Shown here: positions 4,586 through 17,213 of the stretch, piece by piece
Numbering within the stretch: position 1 is the first letter of the stretch
How the letters are laid out: each line of letters opens with the position of its first letter
Source: a virus
Length of the DNA: 21,208 nucleotides
IMG/VR virus record: IMGVR_UViG_3300032011_000167
Location: 1-21,208 of that record
Reading direction: 5' to 3' (one strand)
Notes under the pieces: model-generated
The model's database searches: none
What the model was told of the DNA's origin: nothing
The model's input: only the letters and a program-made list of their open reading frames with translations
Position numbers and translations under genes: made by a program

Positions 4586-7007
4586 TTTTAATTTCCTCTA
4601 ATGTTGCATGGTTGTGAATTACTTTTAATTTATCCCAAGATTTTCCTATATCTAATGAAGCTTTCATTGGAACATCCTCTGATCTAATTGCGTCATCATC
4701 GTTCCACTCCATTTCTTCTATAAGTACATCATTTAAAAATTTAATACATTCCGCAGTATTTCTTACTAAGAAATACCCAGCATCATGAATCATATTACAT
4801 GGAAGAATATCTGTGCCATATCCAGCTTCTTCAATCCGTGCGTTTGTAGCATTCATAGCTCTGTTGAGTAACATCCCCCAGGATTGGGTTATTGCATTAT
4901 TAGCACTACGAGCTTCCTTATCTGCTTCATATGGAGTTCTAGAATTACCTAGAATACATTGTGAGATTATTGGAGTTCTTAGTTTTAAACCAAATGCGCA
5001 CTCTACATATCCATGCTTTTCCATGAATTGTTTATTCTTTTCATTAAATTCCTGGGATACTTTATATAATTTGTGAAATGCTTTCTCTATTTCAGTAGCT
5101 TGATCCATAGGAAAGCCAGTTCTTTTGTGAAGAGTATAGGCTGTGCCCATATACTGTAGGGCAAAGGTGGGCCCTTTAGATCTACGTCTCAGTTCTGGGT
5201 ATTTATCTTGTATAGAATTAATGCTATCTACATTAGTAGGATCTATATCAGGCATTTGATCTGCAAAATATGTTTGAGCTCTTAGTGAATGCCCATCATA
5301 ACCATCGGTGTAGACTTTAATTCTATTAGGATCTTTACTTAAAATAGCTCCTATACGTTCTTCTAGAGCTGAGAAATCCGCACCAGCGAATAACCAGCCA
5401 TCTGGTGCAACAATACAACTTTTAATAAGTTTACCCATGGGCCCATGAGCCGGAAGATTGGTTAAATTAGGAGAATTACTAGCTAATCTTCCGGATTGTG
5501 TTCCTCCAAGTTTTAGATTTCCATGAAGAAAATCCTTTTCTTGCATAAAAGCTTTAATAAATGTTCCATTAATTTTATCTACTTCAGCTAGATCTCTTAC
5601 GAATTTAAGTAAATCTAAAATATCTTGATTATTTGTATGATTTTCTAAATCTTTTAATACATCAGCACCTGTAGCAGGAGCTCCAGATTTTGTTGTATCA
5701 ATAACTGGCAGTTTTAAATTTTCAAATAATAATTTAGCTAACTGAGGATGACTACTAGGATTGAATTTTATATCTTTGAACTCATCAATTGTTTTAACTA
5801 ATTTTTTTAATTTAGCATTGGCTTTTTCACAAGCATCTTTTTGAAGATAGCTTGTAAAAGTAATTACGCAGCTATTCTCTTGTATCTGCTCATTAAGTAC
5901 TTTATCTTTAGCTGCTAGAATGTCATGAACTTCTTGAACTCGATTTGAATTCATAGGAAGTCCAACTAGCATCATTTTAAGTAAAGAATATAAACTAGGT
6001 TGGAATATTTCTAAGTAAGGTCTAGATGCAATTTCAGCATTATACTTTTCCCATACATAAAATGTAGCCAATGCATCAATTAGATTATATTTTAATATCT
6101 CTGCTTTCGTGTATTTAGATATATCTTGTATTTCAATAGCGTAGTTTCCTACGTATTCCATTGCTACATCTTTTAATTTGATAGATGTTTTAGTAGTGGC
6201 ATTCTTAGCTAAGTACACCATAATCATCGTATCATCGAAATTTTTGAAATACTTTAATCCTTCAAGCATACCTGCGTAATCACTAGGATGTTTCATCCAA
6301 AGATGTCGTACTAATATTTTTGCATCGAACAATCCATTATGAAATATCAATTTACCTTTATAGTTTTCAAAAAAGGTTTTAAGGTAATAAATTCCATTAA
6401 TAGATATATCGATGCTTATTCCATCATGTTTAGTCCATGCAAAAGCAATGGAAACTATCTCATCATTTAGATCTAATCCTGTAGTTTCGATATCTGCGGA
6501 TAGTACAGGGTATTTATAAAGAGAATCTAAAAGCTCTCTATCTGATCCATGTTCGAATCCGTATATTGCAGAATTAATAAGTACAGTTGACCCTGTATTT
6601 GTAATTGTTTTAATTCCTATATCAATAAAGCGGTGATTGTCAGGTTGTTTAAATAATGATCTGTAATTAGGTACATATACACATTCATATTTCTCGTATC
6701 CTGTGTGTTTACCTGGTAGGGCACTACTATAGTGATCAGAAATTTTAGCTATTTTAGTAATAAATTTAAAATAACTACTATCTGCTATGATTAACTTAGA
6801 CACACTTTCTGGAATTTTACCAATCAGCTTGTCCAAGTAGGCCTTAGCAGTTTTAGCTAGTATTTTAGTCGGTGTGTTATAAAGAAGCGGTAATGTAAGT
6901 ACAGAGCTTGGTAGAATGCCCTCCTTATTTAACTTAGTTAAATAATGATTATGTATTTCAGCCAAATCAAGAGCATCTTCTTTAATAAGTAATACTGTAG
7001 TTATCAT
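4575..7007 (-). CDS. DNA polymerase, family A, with 3'-5' exonuclease (810 aa)
   Basis: The replicative polymerase. Exonuclease motifs: ADIETTG (Asp 172, Glu 174), FHNGLFD (Asn 224, Asp 228) and YNLID (Tyr 307, Asp 311), so proofreading should be intact. Polymerase motif A is DFSALEERI (Asp 544). Motif B is R607-K611-F615-Y619, with the same spacing as R754/K758/F762/Y766 of E. coli Pol I. Motif C is IHDAGY (Asp 742), with Ala where Pol I has Glu 883. The N-terminal 160 residues before the exonuclease are unassigned, and there is no 5'-3' exonuclease domain. The start at 7007 overlaps the VWA gene stop (ATGA) with AGGAGG upstream. Phe 615 predicts discrimination against dideoxynucleotides. 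Confidence 0.95.
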   Translation of the reverse strand: MITTVLLIKEDALDLAEIHNHYLTKLNKEGILPSSVLTLPLLYNTPTKILAKTAKAYLDKLIGKIPESVSKLIIADSSYFKFITKIAKISDHYSSALPGKHTGYEKYECVYVPNYRSLFKQPDNHRFIDIGIKTITNTGSTVLINSAIYGFEHGSDRELLDSLYKYPVLSADIETTGLDLNDEIVSIAFAWTKHDGISIDISINGIYYLKTFFENYKGKLIFHNGLFDAKILVRHLWMKHPSDYAGMLEGLKYFKNFDDTMIMVYLAKNATTKTSIKLKDVAMEYVGNYAIEIQDISKYTKAEILKYNLIDALATFYVWEKYNAEIASRPYLEIFQPSLYSLLKMMLVGLPMNSNRVQEVHDILAAKDKVLNEQIQENSCVITFTSYLQKDACEKANAKLKKLVKTIDEFKDIKFNPSSHPQLAKLLFENLKLPVIDTTKSGAPATGADVLKDLENHTNNQDILDLLKFVRDLAEVDKINGTFIKAFMQEKDFLHGNLKLGGTQSGRLASNSPNLTNLPAHGPMGKLIKSCIVAPDGWLFAGADFSALEERIGAILSKDPNRIKVYTDGYDGHSLRAQTYFADQMPDIDPTNVDSINSIQDKYPELRRRSKGPTFALQYMGTAYTLHKRTGFPMDQATEIEKAFHKLYKVSQEFNEKNKQFMEKHGYVECAFGLKLRTPIISQCILGNSRTPYEADKEARSANNAITQSWGMLLNRAMNATNARIEEAGYGTDILPCNMIHDAGYFLVRNTAECIKFLNDVLIEEMEWNDDDAIRSEDVPMKASLDIGKSWDKLKVIHNHATLEEIKNVC

Positions 7008-8131
7008 TTTCCTCCTGGGTTTACATAAACAGTTTCTCCAATGTTTGCTGGTTCATGATCAGAATTGCATATCCATAAAACAGGATAGTTTACTGGATCT
7101 AATCTAGATTCTCCATGTAAATCAGTAAAATAAATAAGAGCTTGAGTAGGGTGCTCTTCTACATAATCTAATACTGGTTTAAAACTAGTACCTCCTCCTC
7201 CATGAAATTTTAAAGACATAATATCAGTTGTTTGATCAATACTATGTATGTCATGAATTTCTGCATCACAATCAATAATTGTCATGTACTCTGGGTTAAA
7301 CATTTGTTGTATACCTTTTATTTCACTTAACATTTCTTGTAATTCTTCGTCTTCTATACTACCACTAGTATCTATAGCAAAAGTTAGGTGTCCTAACCCA
7401 TAACTATGTAAACTGGGCATATAGGTATCTGATGAGTATCTACGATTTTTCCTTGCCCACGAGTACTCTTCACGTACTCGCTGGTCGAGAAATCTATGTA
7501 ATATAACTTGCCATGGTAGTTTAGGATTTAATAATTCATCGATGATTCTAAGAATTTCATCTGGGATTTCTCCTTTTAATTGTTTTCCTCCCATTTGTGC
7601 TTGAGTTCGAGCTCGAACAATAATATTTGTTATTGCTGAATCTCGAGTAGGCCCATCGTTACTCTTTTTTTCGCCATCTTCTCTAAGATCAAGCATTAAT
7701 TTACTAGTATCAAAATCTTTTTTCTCTTTCATTAGATCGTCATATACTTTATCAGTAGACCATCCATCTCCGTATTTCTTATCAAGTAATCCTTCAGTAG
7801 GTATTTCGAATCCTGCTTTGGTAAGCATGTGATTAATCACATAGTCACCTGCACAATTCCACATAATAGGATCTCTATTTCCTCTACGAGCTAAATGTTG
7901 AAATGCTACATGCCAACATTCATGAGCCATTAATCCAGCAAATTGTTGAACAGTTTGATTTTTTAAAAATTCAGGATTATACCTAATAGTAGTGCCTCCA
8001 ACATCTGCTGTTGCTGTAGCATCGGTAATTACATGTTTTAAACTTAGGGCAATTGTAGATATAAATGCAGACCTAGTCATGAGCTCGATCTTAGCTTTAA
8101 GTAACTGGCTTTCCAGATCTGTATTAGTCAT
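7004..8131 (-). CDS. Metallopeptidase-like plus VWA domain protein, N4 gp25-like (375 aa)
   Basis: The domain order matches DUF2201-type proteins. An N-terminal putative metallopeptidase region carries HECWH (residues 70-74), an HExxH-form motif. After a charged linker (about 120-170) comes a C-terminal von Willebrand A domain with a MIDAS-like DTSGS (254-258), GGGGTS (311-316) and FTD (335-337). These proteins pair with MoxR-type AAA+ ATPases, and one is encoded directly upstream with an 11-base gap; N4 has the same pair (gp24/gp25). By analogy with other MoxR-VWA systems, the pair would remodel a protein partner using ATP. The actual substrate in phage infection is not known to me. It is coupled to the DNA polymerase start. 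Confidence 0.88.
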   Translation of the reverse strand: MTNTDLESQLLKAKIELMTRSAFISTIALSLKHVITDATATADVGGTTIRYNPEFLKNQTVQQFAGLMAHECWHVAFQHLARRGNRDPIMWNCAGDYVINHMLTKAGFEIPTEGLLDKKYGDGWSTDKVYDDLMKEKKDFDTSKLMLDLREDGEKKSNDGPTRDSAITNIIVRARTQAQMGGKQLKGEIPDEILRIIDELLNPKLPWQVILHRFLDQRVREEYSWARKNRRYSSDTYMPSLHSYGLGHLTFAIDTSGSIEDEELQEMLSEIKGIQQMFNPEYMTIIDCDAEIHDIHSIDQTTDIMSLKFHGGGGTSFKPVLDYVEEHPTQALIYFTDLHGESRLDPVNYPVLWICNSDHEPANIGETVYVNPGGK

Positions 8132-10296: not shown

Positions 10297-12054
10297 CTAT
10301 GACAGCATGTAATTACTATTTATAATATCCAGATGTAAATCATTACTGGTTTTGTTTAATTGTAAACCTCTATTACCAGTTAATTGGTTTAAGATATCAT
10401 TAAGTAAATCACTTTTAGAAATCTCAGTCATAATTTCGCGATATGTTCTACTCACTTGTTGTAAGTAGTTGGGGTTAAAAACAAAACAATCATGAACATG
10501 GCTTAATTGAAAATCACACCGCCTGATCATTTCCCTAGCAATATAACCATCAATAGAATGGATAATATTAGGACATAACGAGCGGAAATTATCAGATTTA
10601 GTTTGCTGATACCACCTTAGAGGAATATCGCCTAATTCATTATCTGCGTATACACCGTTAGTAGGTTCTATAATAGCAGTATAAGCAGTATGTCCATCGG
10701 GCATAACCCACGAATGATAGTCTGAATTGTAGTTCCAACAATCATTAATAATATTCATGACATCTTCTGCACCTGGTAGTAAACCAGTCATAATTTCATA
10801 AAATACCTCCAATTCTTTAGAAGAAAGCAATGCTTTAGGCGTAGCTTTAGAATTATAGAAATGAGTCATAGCAACCTGTTTTATAATCTTTCTAGATACA
10901 GGTTTTGATAACTTTTTATTCATCATTTCAGTTATTTCTGTATATAAATCATACCTAACATTTGGATCGATACAGTTTACTAACTTAGCAGTTTTCTTAC
11001 ATCCAGATAGCACTGCCATAATCTGAATACCAGATGATGTAGCGTCTAGACTCATTACATACCCTGTAGGTCTACCTGCTTTTGTATCTTTTAGGGCTCT
11101 AACCGCTTTACGACCAAGGATAGGCTCATCCCAGATAACATTATCTAGATTATTTGCATCATCTTGCATAAGTGCCCAATCATATCTGTCTCGCCAAGTT
11201 AGCTTGTCTTTACCAGCATGATTAGCTATAGCAATATATAAATTAGGCAATCCTGTTTCACTGATTAACTCTTTATTATGTAAAGACAATAAGCTCTTAC
11301 CATACTCATTACTTTGTAAATTAAGATCATATCCAGAAGAATAACTTCTTCCTCTGGAGTCGTATCGCCATACAAAATAAAAATGAGAGCCTAAGTATTC
11401 ATCAATAACTTTCAAAAATTGCTTTTTGTTAACCATATGGTTTGTTTGTTCTTCTAACAAATATGTAGGAGAATCAATTTCCCAAGCAATATTCTGTAAT
11501 TTATTAATAACATCATAAGCCAATGGCTCATCATGCCTATTAAATCTACTCCCTAAAACTAGATGTTTGCTTTCCCAAAACCACCCCCCATTCTCGTTAT
11601 TAGTCCAATCAATAGGTTTTGCTTTCATAGGAGGCAAATATTGTAGTTTATCCAATCTTTGTTGGGTATTAATATCTAATGTAAAATTAGGGCATATATT
11701 CCATTCGTTATTTATAGATTTAAAATTATATAAACCACTATCTCTAGACTCTTTAAGTAATAAAATTCCCCATACAAATGCGTCAAGAGCATCAGGTATA
11801 CCCGCACTAATTCCTATTTGAGTAGCAATTTCCTGAATAGGCCGTCTATTTCTATCTTTAAGAATAAGCGAGAACAGTTTAATAAATATTTCTTTGTTAT
11901 CGATATATTTATTATTGTTTAAACTATTAATAGCCCCAAGAATGTTTGATTCCATTTCTGGAGGGATTTTTCCTTGGATAGATTCAAGGATAATGTCATC
12001 GGTGAGCCTTGTAGACCATGTCGTTTCTAACGTATACTGATCAGTATTAGCCAT
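10297..12054 (-). CDS. Single-subunit (T7-family) RNA polymerase, compact single chain (585 aa)
   Basis: A DNA-dependent RNA polymerase of the T7/mitochondrial/N4 family. Motifs: DSRGR (232-236), the DxxGR motif; SLDATSSGIQ, motif A with catalytic Asp 337; motif B Arg 388, Lys 392 and Tyr 400, with the same spacing as R627/K631/Y639 of T7; and HVHDCF, motif C with His 521 and Asp 522. At 585 residues it is about 300 shorter than T7 RNA polymerase (883). The C-terminus lacks the T7 FAFA foot, and the N-terminal promoter-binding region is small. N4 encodes the equivalent enzyme (RNAPII) as two proteins, gp15 with DxxGR and gp16 with motifs A-C; here all motifs are on one chain. Expected role: middle transcription of the genes to its left. 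Its leader holds a terminator. Confidence 0.93.
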   Translation of the reverse strand: MANTDQYTLETTWSTRLTDDIILESIQGKIPPEMESNILGAINSLNNNKYIDNKEIFIKLFSLILKDRNRRPIQEIATQIGISAGIPDALDAFVWGILLLKESRDSGLYNFKSINNEWNICPNFTLDINTQQRLDKLQYLPPMKAKPIDWTNNENGGWFWESKHLVLGSRFNRHDEPLAYDVINKLQNIAWEIDSPTYLLEEQTNHMVNKKQFLKVIDEYLGSHFYFVWRYDSRGRSYSSGYDLNLQSNEYGKSLLSLHNKELISETGLPNLYIAIANHAGKDKLTWRDRYDWALMQDDANNLDNVIWDEPILGRKAVRALKDTKAGRPTGYVMSLDATSSGIQIMAVLSGCKKTAKLVNCIDPNVRYDLYTEITEMMNKKLSKPVSRKIIKQVAMTHFYNSKATPKALLSSKELEVFYEIMTGLLPGAEDVMNIINDCWNYNSDYHSWVMPDGHTAYTAIIEPTNGVYADNELGDIPLRWYQQTKSDNFRSLCPNIIHSIDGYIAREMIRRCDFQLSHVHDCFVFNPNYLQQVSRTYREIMTEISKSDLLNDILNQLTGNRGLQLNKTSNDLHLDIINSNYMLS

Positions 12055-12083: not shown

Positions 12084-12113
12084 AAAAAACCCCCAAGGAA
12101 CTAACCTTGAGGG
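12084..12113 (-). terminator. Intrinsic terminator or attenuator in the RNA polymerase leader
   Basis: The minus-strand RNA folds as a 9-bp stem (12105-12113 with 12090-12098) around a six-base loop, followed by six Us. One position is G-U in minus-strand RNA but C-A mismatched in plus-strand RNA, so the element works leftward. It lies between the hairpin promoter at 12124-12142 and the RNA polymerase ATG at 12054. A transcript started there would meet it within about 15 nt, and readthrough would be needed to express the polymerase. Confidence 0.85.
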
Positions 12114-12123
12114 CAGTTAAAAG

Positions 12124-12142
12124 ACCGAGCTGACAAGGTCAG
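12124..12142 (-). promoter_or_regulatory. Virion-RNAP-type hairpin promoter 1 (drives RNA polymerase gene)
   Basis: The plus (template) strand carries CTGAC-AAG-GTCAG (12130-12142), a 5-bp stem with a 3-base purine loop. On the minus strand the hairpin is followed by three variable bases and GGT (12124-12126), then a T-rich stretch ending AACT. The same arrangement occurs at two other sites, each upstream of leftward genes. N4 virion RNA polymerase uses template-strand hairpins of this geometry, starting with G about 11 bases from the loop centre. That predicts a start near 12125. Confidence 0.75.
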
Positions 12143-13689: not shown

Positions 13690-13921
13690 GCAACGCCACA
13701 GCGTTGCTACCTTTACTTTAAAAGGGGTAGCAATATGCACTCAGGTCTATAGAATCAAGAGTACATATTGCTCAATAATCTTAAGAATTAACCGCCTCCA
13801 CTTTTGACTTCGCAAGTCGTAAACCCTTTACTTCCAGAGAATCAGTTTTACAGGGTACGGAGCGACCGCAACTCCCAACTCCTACGGGTTAAGTTTCTAT
13901 GACTCCTCATTAAGATTATTG
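13690..13921 (-). ncRNA. Candidate structured RNA element B (intergenic, about 230 nt)
   Basis: This segment fills most of the gap between genes ending at 13931 and starting at 13629. A perfect 12-bp stem pairs 13773-13784 with 13910-13921, enclosing ttaacc/ggttaa (13788-13793/13887-13892), the hairpin GACTT-CGC-AAGTC (13806-13818) and acccta-type pairings. Leftward lie three hairpins sharing bases: 13730-13742/13759-13771, 13704-13711/13726-13733 and GCAACGC-CACA-GCGTTGC (13690-13707). The first is a continuous 13-bp stem only in minus-strand RNA, where a C-A mismatch becomes G-U. The overlapping hairpins are mutually exclusive, as in a switch. No open frame of note is present. Confidence 0.5.
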
Positions 13922-13930
13922 TCCCTAATT

Positions 13931-14062
13931 TTAACAGTTGTTATAAAGATCACATAATTTACCGTATGGGTAATTGTTAGTTATTTCCCATGCGTTAACA
14001 TAATGAGCCAATGTAAACAACGCAATAACTGTTAGCACGAATATGATTATTTGATTAATCAT
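13931..14062 (-). CDS. Small membrane protein (43 aa)
   Basis: ATG at 14062 follows GGAGGTATC and overlaps the upstream stop (ATGA). Residues 4-22 (QIIIFVLTVIALFTLAHYV) form one transmembrane helix or uncleaved signal anchor. The short tail has two cysteines (KLCDLYNNC). It lies directly upstream of structured element B in the transcript. The role is unknown; a cell-envelope location is predicted. Confidence 0.6.
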   Translation of the reverse strand: MINQIIIFVLTVIALFTLAHYVNAWEITNNYPYGKLCDLYNNC

Positions 14063-14229
14063 GATACCTCCAGTCCTGCTTTGTTCATACGAATACAAAC
14101 AGAGCAAGGGTTATTTACACATGGTTCGTTAGTTAAGTTATTAACCCAAACCATGTAGTTATGTACTATTTGAGACTCTGCATAATGATGCGTATCGTTG
14201 AACTCTTTCATGATTTCTTTAACGGACAT
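14059..14229 (-). CDS. Small cysteine-containing protein (56 aa)
   Basis: ATG at 14229 follows AAGGAGAATTAAA. The C-terminal half carries three cysteines (EPCVNNPCSVCIRMNK), compatible with metal binding or disulfide formation. The N-terminal half is helical (KEIMKEFNDTHHYAE). Its TGA overlaps the start of the membrane peptide gene. No family is recognised. Confidence 0.6.
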   Translation of the reverse strand: MSVKEIMKEFNDTHHYAESQIVHNYMVWVNNLTNEPCVNNPCSVCIRMNKAGLEVS

Positions 14230-14439: not shown

Positions 14440-14664
14440 TTACCTCCAAAAGTTTTCGTTATGGTTAACTTTAAGCTCATCTATTGCAAGCTGAGCTTCG
14501 ATAGCTAATAAATCTACAGATTTTTGATGTTTTTCAATCTGTCGTTCCGCTTCAATTTTTGCACAAGTAAACTTGTATTCATCCCAAGCATCCTTCCAAA
14601 TTACTTTAATATCTTGTTTAGCCTCTATCAGTATTGCTTTCATTTCTCGTTTAAAATCATTCAT
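14440..14664 (-). CDS. Helical hypothetical protein (74 aa)
   Basis: ATG at 14664 follows GGAGGAG. Almost the whole chain is predicted helix with heptad character (MKAILIEAKQDIKVIWKDAW, then EAERQIEKHQKSVDLLAIEA), so it may be an oligomeric coiled coil. It is the gene immediately downstream of structured element C, and its end overlaps the binding site for the next start. Function unknown. Confidence 0.65.
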   Translation of the reverse strand: MNDFKREMKAILIEAKQDIKVIWKDAWDEYKFTCAKIEAERQIEKHQKSVDLLAIEAQLAIDELKVNHNENFWR

Positions 14665-14689
14665 TGTAAACTCCTCCGTAGGTTAAGTA

Positions 14690-14827
14690 GAAGTAGCAGT
14701 GACCGTATCGGAACTAGCCTAGTTGTGTTGCCATTAGGGCATCGAGCTTGCGTTGGTTTGTTAGCACCAGTACCTCGAATCCGACCCTAATGAGCACCTT
14801 GACCTTGAACTTGCGGTATGCTACTTC
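14690..14827 (-). ncRNA. Candidate structured RNA element C (intergenic, 138 nt)
   Basis: The whole gap between the AlkB-like gene (stop at 14834) and the 74-aa gene folds on itself. A perfect 9-bp outer stem pairs 14690-14698 with 14819-14827 (gaagtagca/tgctacttc). Next is accg/cggt (14702-14705/14814-14817). A side hairpin AACTA-GCC-TAGTT lies at 14712-14724. A long arm pairs 14732-14739 with 14785-14792 (cattaggg/ccctaatg) and 14742-14746 with 14774-14778 (tcgag/ctcga). The pairing is nested and closes the element as a multibranch junction. Strand is assigned from flanking genes. No RNA family is recognised. Confidence 0.6.
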
Positions 14828-14833
14828 ATTTAT

Positions 14834-15430
14834 TTAAGGAATATGCCTGAAAGTTAGACTTATCCTTGATGGACAAGCGTAAAACCTATTATCCTTCTGT
14901 GGTTTACTAACAGAGTGCTTATACTCGTTCTGAAAGCTACCTTCAGGCATTAAGTAGCAACTTCCGTTCGTTAACTTGATCGTAAGAGGTTCTTCACTAC
15001 GATCATTACGGGTTATAGTAGCAACTGCTGTATCTCCTAAGCTGATAGTTGCTACAGCACCTACAGTTCCGTCAGCATTACGAAAGATAGGTTCATCGTC
15101 TGCGTGAGGTGCGATACCCTTATCAGTATAGAGATTAGCAAGTAGGCAGTTGAAGTAACCTACTGGATACTCTAGTTGTTCTTCTAAATCTCGAGCTATT
15201 TGACCGAACTCATCATGCCAGCTCTGAGCATTGTGCCTTACGCCTGTATAAGCGTAATCTACGTCACCGTACCAAGTAGCTACGTGATTGTGGTAGTTAC
15301 GATTGCAGTTGTTATCTGCTTTGATCTGTTCCCAAAGACTCTTGAAGTCTTGTAGGATAAGATGGTCTTCTAAATCTAAGAATAATACGGTTATTAGATT
15401 GTTTATTACACCTTTGTTTAATGTAGCCAT
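14834..15430 (-). CDS. AlkB-like 2-oxoglutarate/Fe(II) dioxygenase (198 aa)
   Basis: Iron ligands HAD (His 109, Asp 111, in GIAPHADDEPIF) and His 172 (EYKHSVSK), with the 2-oxoglutarate-binding pair Arg 189 and Arg 195 in SRISLTFRHI, match the AlkB family including its R-x5-R C-terminal spacing. The core before them (LLANLYTDK) resembles the AlkB substrate-side strand. AlkB enzymes remove alkyl groups from DNA or RNA bases. In an early phage operon it could repair viral nucleic acid or modify host RNA or protein; that is inference. The start at 15430 follows AAGGAG. It is followed closely by structured element C. Confidence 0.88.
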   Translation of the reverse strand: MATLNKGVINNLITVLFLDLEDHLILQDFKSLWEQIKADNNCNRNYHNHVATWYGDVDYAYTGVRHNAQSWHDEFGQIARDLEEQLEYPVGYFNCLLANLYTDKGIAPHADDEPIFRNADGTVGAVATISLGDTAVATITRNDRSEEPLTIKLTNGSCYLMPEGSFQNEYKHSVSKPQKDNRFYACPSRISLTFRHIP

Positions 15431-16316: not shown

Positions 16317-16332
16317 TGACTGACAAGGTCAG
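16314..16332 (-). promoter_or_regulatory. Virion-RNAP-type hairpin promoter 2
   Basis: CTGAC-AAG-GTCAG on the template (plus) strand at 16320-16332 is identical to the other two sites. On the minus strand it is followed by three bases and GGT (16314-16316), then AATTCTACT. Upstream flanks CCCTGT (here) and CCCTG (site 1) are also shared. The gene at 15743-16261 lies directly downstream. The predicted start is near 16315. Confidence 0.78.
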
Positions 16333-16764: not shown

Positions 16765-16794
16765 GTTGATTCTCCTAATAATGTTAGTAATATT

Positions 16795-16813
16795 ACCTCC
16801 CTGACAAGGTCAG
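16795..16813 (-). promoter_or_regulatory. Virion-RNAP-type hairpin promoter 3 (first leftward promoter)
   Basis: CTGAC-AAG-GTCAG on the plus strand at 16801-16813 is followed, in leftward direction, by three bases, GGT (16795-16797) and AATATTACT. The downstream block GGTAATNNTACT is shared with promoter 2 and partly with promoter 1. The 79-aa gene starts about 32 bases downstream. No minus-strand gene lies to its right in this window, so it is the outermost leftward promoter here. Confidence 0.78.
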
Positions 16814-16837
16814 TGTAAAAGATCGTTTTTTGTTTTT

Positions 16838-16851
16838 GGGGCGGGGGTGGG
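16838..16851 (+). other. G-rich tract
   Basis: Three guanine runs (GGGG, GGGGG, GGG) separated by single bases stand out in otherwise AT-rich DNA, between the leftward hairpin promoter and the opposite hairpin at 16856. Three long runs allow a two-layer quadruplex, or three layers if a run is supplied in trans. Transcribed leftward it would give a C-rich RNA upstream of the promoter, so a DNA-level role is more likely. Confidence 0.4.
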
Positions 16852-16855
16852 TTTT

Positions 16856-16872
16856 GTTGAACTTGGTTCAAC
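16856..16872 (+). promoter_or_regulatory. Perfect 7-bp hairpin with 3-nt loop, candidate rightward hairpin promoter or operator
   Basis: GTTGAAC-TTG-GTTCAAC has the same geometry class as the three CTGAC hairpins (5-7 bp stem, 3-base loop). If it is a promoter, the purine loop (CAA) is on the minus strand, making that the template and giving rightward transcription. Downstream it reads TAGTTAGTACT, with partial likeness to the GGTnnTnnTACT block. The loop sequence differs, and the first plus-strand gene is about 340 bases away, so an operator is the alternative. Confidence 0.4.
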
Positions 16873-16970
16873 TAGTTAGTACTGCACTTCTACCTAGAAT
16901 GAAAAAATTGCTAATGGCGCTAGACCATCTTAGAATTTTATCCCCCCTAAAAATATAATATATAATTATT

Positions 16971-17029
16971 AATAAGGACGGCGGACTGAAGCCCCGCAGG
17001 GGCGAGAAGTCCGGCGGACGCTTCTTATT
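16971..17029. other. Three-tier GC-rich hairpin in the divergence region
   Basis: GCCCC-GCA-GGGGC (16991-17003) is nested in CGGACT/AGTCCG (16982-16987/17008-17013) and then AATAAG/CTTATT (16971-16976/17024-17029). GGCGGAC is also directly repeated (16980-16986 and 17013-17019). It stands out in the surrounding AT-rich DNA. It could be a terminus or packaging-related structure, a leader hairpin for rightward RNA or a bidirectional block. No T tract follows on either strand. The stretch 16873-16970 shows only AT-rich DNA and a C run at 16942-16947. Confidence 0.5.
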
Positions 17030-17030
17030 C

Positions 17031-17060
17031 TTAAGAGAGAGTTAGACCTTTAGATATAAT
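17031..17060 (+). promoter_or_regulatory. Sigma70-like promoter candidate for the late (plus-strand) genes
   Basis: A perfect -10 box TATAAT (17055-17060) has TTAAGA (17031-17036) 18 bases upstream as a -35 with four of six matches. It points toward the plus-strand genes, and a dyad operator begins within 17 bases downstream. In N4, late genes are read by host RNA polymerase, which fits. A second weaker candidate is TTGCTA (17143-17148) with TAATAT (17165-17170). Confidence 0.45.
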
Positions 17061-17073
17061 AAGTTACAAAAAG

Positions 17074-17131
17074 TTTAATGTCGTATACGACATTTAACTG
17101 GGTAGTTTAATATACATATACGACATTAAAC
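17074..17131. promoter_or_regulatory. Pair of operator-like dyads
   Basis: Dyad 1 is a perfect 18-base palindrome, AATGTCGTATACGACATT (17077-17094), extended by TTT on the left. Dyad 2 (17105-17131) keeps the outer arms GTTTAAT and ATTAAAC and the right half ATACGACATT but has a degenerate left half. The two centres are about 32-33 bases apart, close to three helical turns. The location, just after a sigma70-like promoter and before the first plus-strand gene, fits a repressor or activator controlling the late genes. Confidence 0.65.
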
Positions 17132-17213
17132 GAAGTTAAGTGTTGCTATTTGTAGTTAATTAGGTAATATTACGTTAAGTTTAGGTAACTAATTGGGGAG
17201 TGGATATTCTATT

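Follow-up and report, generated by a model that had tools for sequence, protein, structure and literature searches.

What occupies the gap between an AlkB-like oxygenase gene and a 74-aa open reading frame (p74) in the genome of an uncultured phage, and does it act as an RNA? The locus, here called element C, lies in a window of 21,208 nt (the whole stretch of DNA analysed), a fragment of an uncultured N4-like phage genome whose origin is likely marine, judging from the company in which it is found. The record encodes an N4-like RNAP2 (10297-12054; phrog_2051, E 2.4e-97), a family A DNA polymerase, and a PD-(D/E)XK exonuclease, with the terminase large subunit on the opposite strand from this set. 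The phage setting assumed in the original prediction is upheld. Its RNAP2 is less than 60% identical to those of all cultured phage records (the best among the matches listed, Alteromonas phage PT15-A5, shares 32%) and 64-72% identical to those of a group of IMG/VR contigs. Element C was first described as an AT-rich spacer filling an entire gap of 138 bases. Its GC content is in fact 50%, and the coding-free gap spans 169 nt (14665-14833) between two minus-strand genes.

Two further features of the record were observed. Adjacent minus-strand ORFs at 628-1083 and 1077-1640 have repeated DNA in common, in stretches that are 73-86% identical, and are probably paralogues; neither has a confident Pfam family. 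On the plus strand, a match to SIB_RNA at 13931-14077 falls below threshold (28.3 bits, E 0.011, gathering 56) and is antisense to a small, conserved hydrophobic ORF on the minus strand (13931-14107); it is possibly a chance match.

The nested stems described in the original prediction are present. Read as plus-strand letters, the locus contains a 9-bp perfect inverted repeat, GAAGTAGCA (14690-14698) and TGCTACTTC (14819-14827), and an 8-bp stem, CATTAGGG (14732-14739) and CCCTAATG (14785-14792); a 4-bp stem (CCGT/ACGG) and the inner stems appear in minimum-energy folds. The folding energy corresponds to a z-score of -3.0 on the minus strand (0/200 shuffles as low) and -2.7 on the plus strand (3/200). 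Along the record, 28 of the 306 windows scored have values of -2.7 or lower. Shuffling the gap produces a closing stem of at least 9 bp in only 10 of 3000 trials, but a 9-bp closing stem is found in 24 of 1052 overlapping windows of the real sequence. Neither fold energy nor stem length is more than moderately unusual for this genome, and the argument that the nested order is improbable by chance is not supported. Across the gaps of the phage group, long closing stems show weak enrichment (14 of 132 gaps exceed 15 shuffles where ~8 would be expected). Thermodynamics alone would not establish element C; its homologue in a related phage does.

That homologue was found in a single contig (L011/L069) among the 71 relatives' loci first fetched. 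The core, TACCGCAAGTTCARGGTCRAGGTGCTC ... ACAACTAGGCTAGTTCCGATACGG, is identical at 49 of 51 positions, whereas between the same two phages the RNAP2 gene is 68% and the terminase-side gene 75% identical in DNA. In the window the closing stem P1 reads GAAGUAGCA/UGCUACUUC; the L011 version is GAGGCAGUA/UGCUGCCUC, with five of the 18 bases different. These changes comprise two double compensatory substitutions and one C-G to U-G replacement, and no pair is broken. Pairing kept through compensatory change, as expected of a structured phage non-coding RNA, is thus seen in P1 (n = 2 sequences); its absence from related phages had been named in advance as grounds for rejecting the fold. P2 and P3 are invariant between the copies, which leaves covariation readable in P1 only, and it rests on one comparison because only two copies are known.

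The same comparison identifies the RNA strand. The eighth P1 pair of L011 reads U-G on the minus strand but would be A-C on the plus strand. The RNA is therefore the minus strand, in agreement with both flanking genes and contrary to the plus-strand reading first given. The side hairpin AACTAGCCTAGTT (14713-14725) included in that reading is a plus-strand feature; on the minus strand its pairing probability is 0.02-0.06, and its bases pair there as GGUC/GGCU. Folded separately, the two homologues yield the same P1, P2 (CCG/CGG), and P3 (GGUC/GGCU), and both leave the same 9+10-nt internal loop open (Table 1). At the apex, the window has a 73-nt arm where L011 has a short hairpin, which marks the apex as a spare arm.

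Table 1. Positions of element C, its parts, and its neighbouring genes in the window.
Feature	Position	Strand	Evidence or remark
AlkB-like 2OG-Fe(II) oxygenase, 198 aa, upstream neighbour	14834-15430	-	Pfam PF13532, E 3.6e-17; absent beside the L011 copy
p74, 74-aa ORF, downstream neighbour	14440-14664	-	no known family
Element C, whole structured RNA domain, 138 nt	14690-14827	-	nhmmer E 1e-6 to L011; L011 homologue 81 nt
P1 5' arm, GAAGUAGCA	14819-14827	-	pairing probability 0.97-1.0; 2 double compensatory changes and 1 wobble versus L011
P1 3' arm, UGCUACUUC	14690-14698	-	pairs with P1 5' arm
P2 5' arm, ACCG	14814-14817	-	folds of both homologues; unchanged in L011
P2 3' arm, CGGU	14702-14705	-	folds of both homologues
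Conserved internal loop, 5' side, CAAGUUCAR	14805-14813	-	unpaired in both folds
Conserved internal loop, 3' side, AGUUCCGAUA	14706-14715	-	unpaired in both folds; identical in L011
P3 5' arm, GGUC	14801-14804	-	pairing probability 0.67-0.92 across the two homologues; invariant
P3 3' arm, GGCU	14716-14719	-	homologue folds
Variable apical arm, 8-bp stem CAUUAGGG/CCCUAAUG and inner hairpins	14728-14800	-	short hairpin in L011
3' tail, UACUUAA	14683-14689	-	identical directly after P1 in L011

Could this be a chance fold in spacer DNA, with the similarity to L011 reflecting shared ancestry of the DNA without any RNA function? The moderate energy and stem statistics are compatible with such an explanation, as is the probability of 0.15 that five P1 changes would all preserve pairing if only transitions were allowed; under random substitution this probability is 0.0045. 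Slid controls for P1 gave 0 double changes in every case, and the shuffle control was weak (120/500). A chance fold does not account for a core that is far more conserved than the surrounding genes, whereas the apex and P1 have diverged, nor for the agreement between independent folds of the two copies, and we consider it improbable. Nor does the conservation look like that of a protein: the two copies have no open frame in common, and the core changes show no third-codon-position bias, in keeping with the non-coding status first assigned. One minus-strand frame, YRKFKVKVL...QLG-stop-FRYG, is similar in L011 and was rejected as coding, because its core changes hit the first and second codon positions, it is interrupted by a TAG, and the start is not shared. 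Taken together, these results make it very probable that element C is a real structured RNA.

Comparison with known RNA classes upheld the view that element C is neither a tRNA nor a known riboswitch. Over 14600-14900, Rfam 15 gives no family match at the gathering threshold or at E 10. Neither ARAGORN (tRNA or tmRNA) nor RF00005 reports anything at element C, and no intrinsic terminator (GC stem followed by a U run) is called at 14690-14827. The record's only tRNA-like match lies at 1541-1615 on the minus strand (RF00005, 41.9 bits); it has an odd anticodon arm and receives no ARAGORN call, and in the relative L010 an intact tRNA-Asn lies about as far from RNAP2.

A covariance model built from the two sequences recovered only these same copies from 93 sources and 40 whole records, and no copy was present among ~51,000 phage records. 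Pattern scans of viral contigs and bacterial genomes, which as exact-pattern searches miss diverged copies, yielded no further element C, the remaining matches being chance occurrences lacking the closing stem. Searches of phage and plasmid records with blastn returned nothing convincing. Each record holds a single copy, which does not fit a miniature transposable element, expected in several copies with terminal repeats. Element C is not essential to the phage group, because most relatives do not have it, and with only two copies it looks like a rare new phage RNA.

The genomic neighbours of the two copies differ. In L011, element C is not beside alkB, and the next gene downstream is a 76-aa ORF that is separated from it by a 190-nt non-coding block (c). 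This change of flanking genes makes a leader or riboswitch dedicated to one gene unlikely, including the processed leader that the original prediction had offered as one possibility. A putative riboswitch-like element, sensing a ligand and regulating the gene downstream, would make use of the conserved internal loop that a variable P1 carries, and the p74 Shine-Dalgarno sequence does lie ~15 nt past P1, with weak predicted pairing to UCCUU at the alkB end. But riboswitches occupy the 5'UTR of a consistent gene class, and here the downstream gene is different in L011, the two copies share no expression platform, and a longer fold reaches a z-score of only -1.5; of the explanations weighed, we give this one the lowest odds. 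A small self-cleaving ribozyme that cuts the polycistronic RNA has scarcely better prospects. A free closing stem, a conserved internal loop, P3, and a variable apical arm together reproduce the layout of such ribozymes, but Rfam gives no match to any known ribozyme class even at E 10.

Relatives of this phage carry other conserved non-coding blocks. In L011, element C sits between blocks B2 (about 5865-5970) and c (6069-6225), joined by linkers of ~10 nt. In L022, B2 and c almost adjoin, with no element C between them, and in L002 the same slot holds an unrelated 240-nt block. The L011 segments 5690-5975 (B1/B2) and 6060-6254 (c) have homologues in L002, L022, L006, L105, and L020. B2 combines an invariant core with a clearly covarying closing stem, whose pairing is intact in four distinct sequences (AAGUGG/CCACUU, AUGGUA/UACCAU, AAGCGGUACUGC/GCAGUACUGCUU, and AAGCAGGA/UCCUGCUU). 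In the window, the conserved non-coding block A (13773-13921, minus) is closed by a 12-bp stem, CAATAATCTTAA/TTAAGATTATTG. It has homologues in four relatives (L005, L006, L002, and L011) and in L011 occupies a different genome position, ~10 kb downstream of RNAP2; its fold has a z-score of +1.0, so free energy alone gives block A no support. Like element C, these blocks have conserved cores, lie in tandem or intergenic positions, and change neighbours between genomes, and B2 and A also have clear closing stems. Unlike element C, they are present in more relatives, and the core sequences are unrelated. By these comparisons, A, B2, and c act like movable non-coding cassettes, a pattern that element C fits.

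A free closing stem, a fixed internal loop, and a spare apex point to the loop as the working part of the molecule. We therefore favour, with a probability of roughly 0.45, the reading that element C is a separate structured RNA unit of the early minus-strand transcript that binds a protein through this loop. P1, in which pairing is kept and sequence is free, would present the conserved 9+10-nt asymmetric loop between P2 and P3, with the variable hairpin arm as a cap. The RNA may be released from the polycistronic early transcript or be stable within it, and any trimming would probably occur in the AU-rich linkers on either side of P1. The loop would most likely hold a phage or host protein, element C acting as a unit in its own right and not as the leader of one gene.

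Second to this protein-binding unit we rank a cis-acting element of mRNA processing or stability, an unlikely but live alternative, in which P1 insulates the alkB and p74 messages as an RNase III/E site or 3'-end protector, with little depending on the fine sequence. The retention of P1 pairing while its sequence drifts agrees with such a role. So do the structures found at the alkB 3' position in relatives, a 15-bp-closed two-hairpin domain in L002 and 11-12-bp hairpins in L010 and L049, and it is this variety that keeps the cis alternative alive. A generic site would leave the 49/51 conserved core unexplained, and L011 keeps the same core away from alkB, between two non-coding blocks. One would also expect such a site to recur several times within a genome; a single copy with a fixed core argues against a generic processing hairpin. 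The L002 domain (7464-7551; z -5.2), which follows alkB directly, was itself considered as a homologue of element C, sharing its place and a CGCAAGU match, but it was missed by both the covariance model and nhmmer and is treated as a different element with an unrelated core.

A broader form of the protein-binding reading is more tentative. N4-like phages of this group may carry in their early region an exchangeable set of unrelated, stem-closed RNA genes, each with its own conserved core and arranged much like a tandem array, which would act in trans on host or phage RNA polymerases; element C would be one of them. Should element C and blocks A, B2, and c prove to be real RNAs, the early phase of infection by these phages would include expression of a structured RNA set, and such RNAs would be a fresh source of binders of host or phage proteins. 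Judging from titles and abstracts in the literature on the N4-like family and non-coding RNA, few non-coding RNAs have been described for these phages, and no work on RNAs of this kind appears there.

Promoter- and terminator-like sites were also observed elsewhere in these genomes. Three identical hairpins, CTGACAAGGTCAG (12130-12142, 16320-16332, and 16801-16813; 0.02 expected by chance), have a 5-bp stem and a 3-nt template-strand loop, AAG, and each lies upstream of a minus-strand gene; they are candidate N4-type vRNAP hairpin promoters, though position -8 is not G as in N4. Between one such candidate promoter and the RNAP2 start lies a strong intrinsic-terminator-like hairpin (12089-12114, minus), possibly an attenuator or an operon end. 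Nearly all relatives conserve the intergenic region 16765-17190 (E down to 6e-59), which separates the divergent gene sets and contains the palindrome AATGTCGTATACGACATT at 17077-17094. In L011, six GGCTACGCCTANTAG-like copies upstream of early genes (at about 3947, 4412, 4767, 5579, 6825, and 7333) are perhaps promoters of that phage.

Phage T4 produces two stable small RNAs of unknown role, C and D, located in its tRNA cluster. Like them, element C is about 100-140 nt long, structured, and set in a non-coding stretch of a phage transcript; it differs in not lying in a tRNA cluster and in being a predicted RNA. The hairpin promoters of N4 vRNAP carry a 3-nt loop in which, on the template strand, position -11 is a purine and position -10 a G (PMC4496689). 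The AACTA-GCC-TAGTT palindrome likewise has a 5-bp stem and a 3-nt loop, but its template-strand loop is GCC, its centre relative to the neighbouring genes being C where N4 vRNAP needs a purine (PMC4496689), which sets it apart from that class. The manA, wcaG, and c4 antisense motifs are structured RNAs carried by phages (PMC2864571) and, like element C, came to light by comparison in phages and metagenomes. Element C differs from these in having no Rfam match and in not being tied to one gene class.
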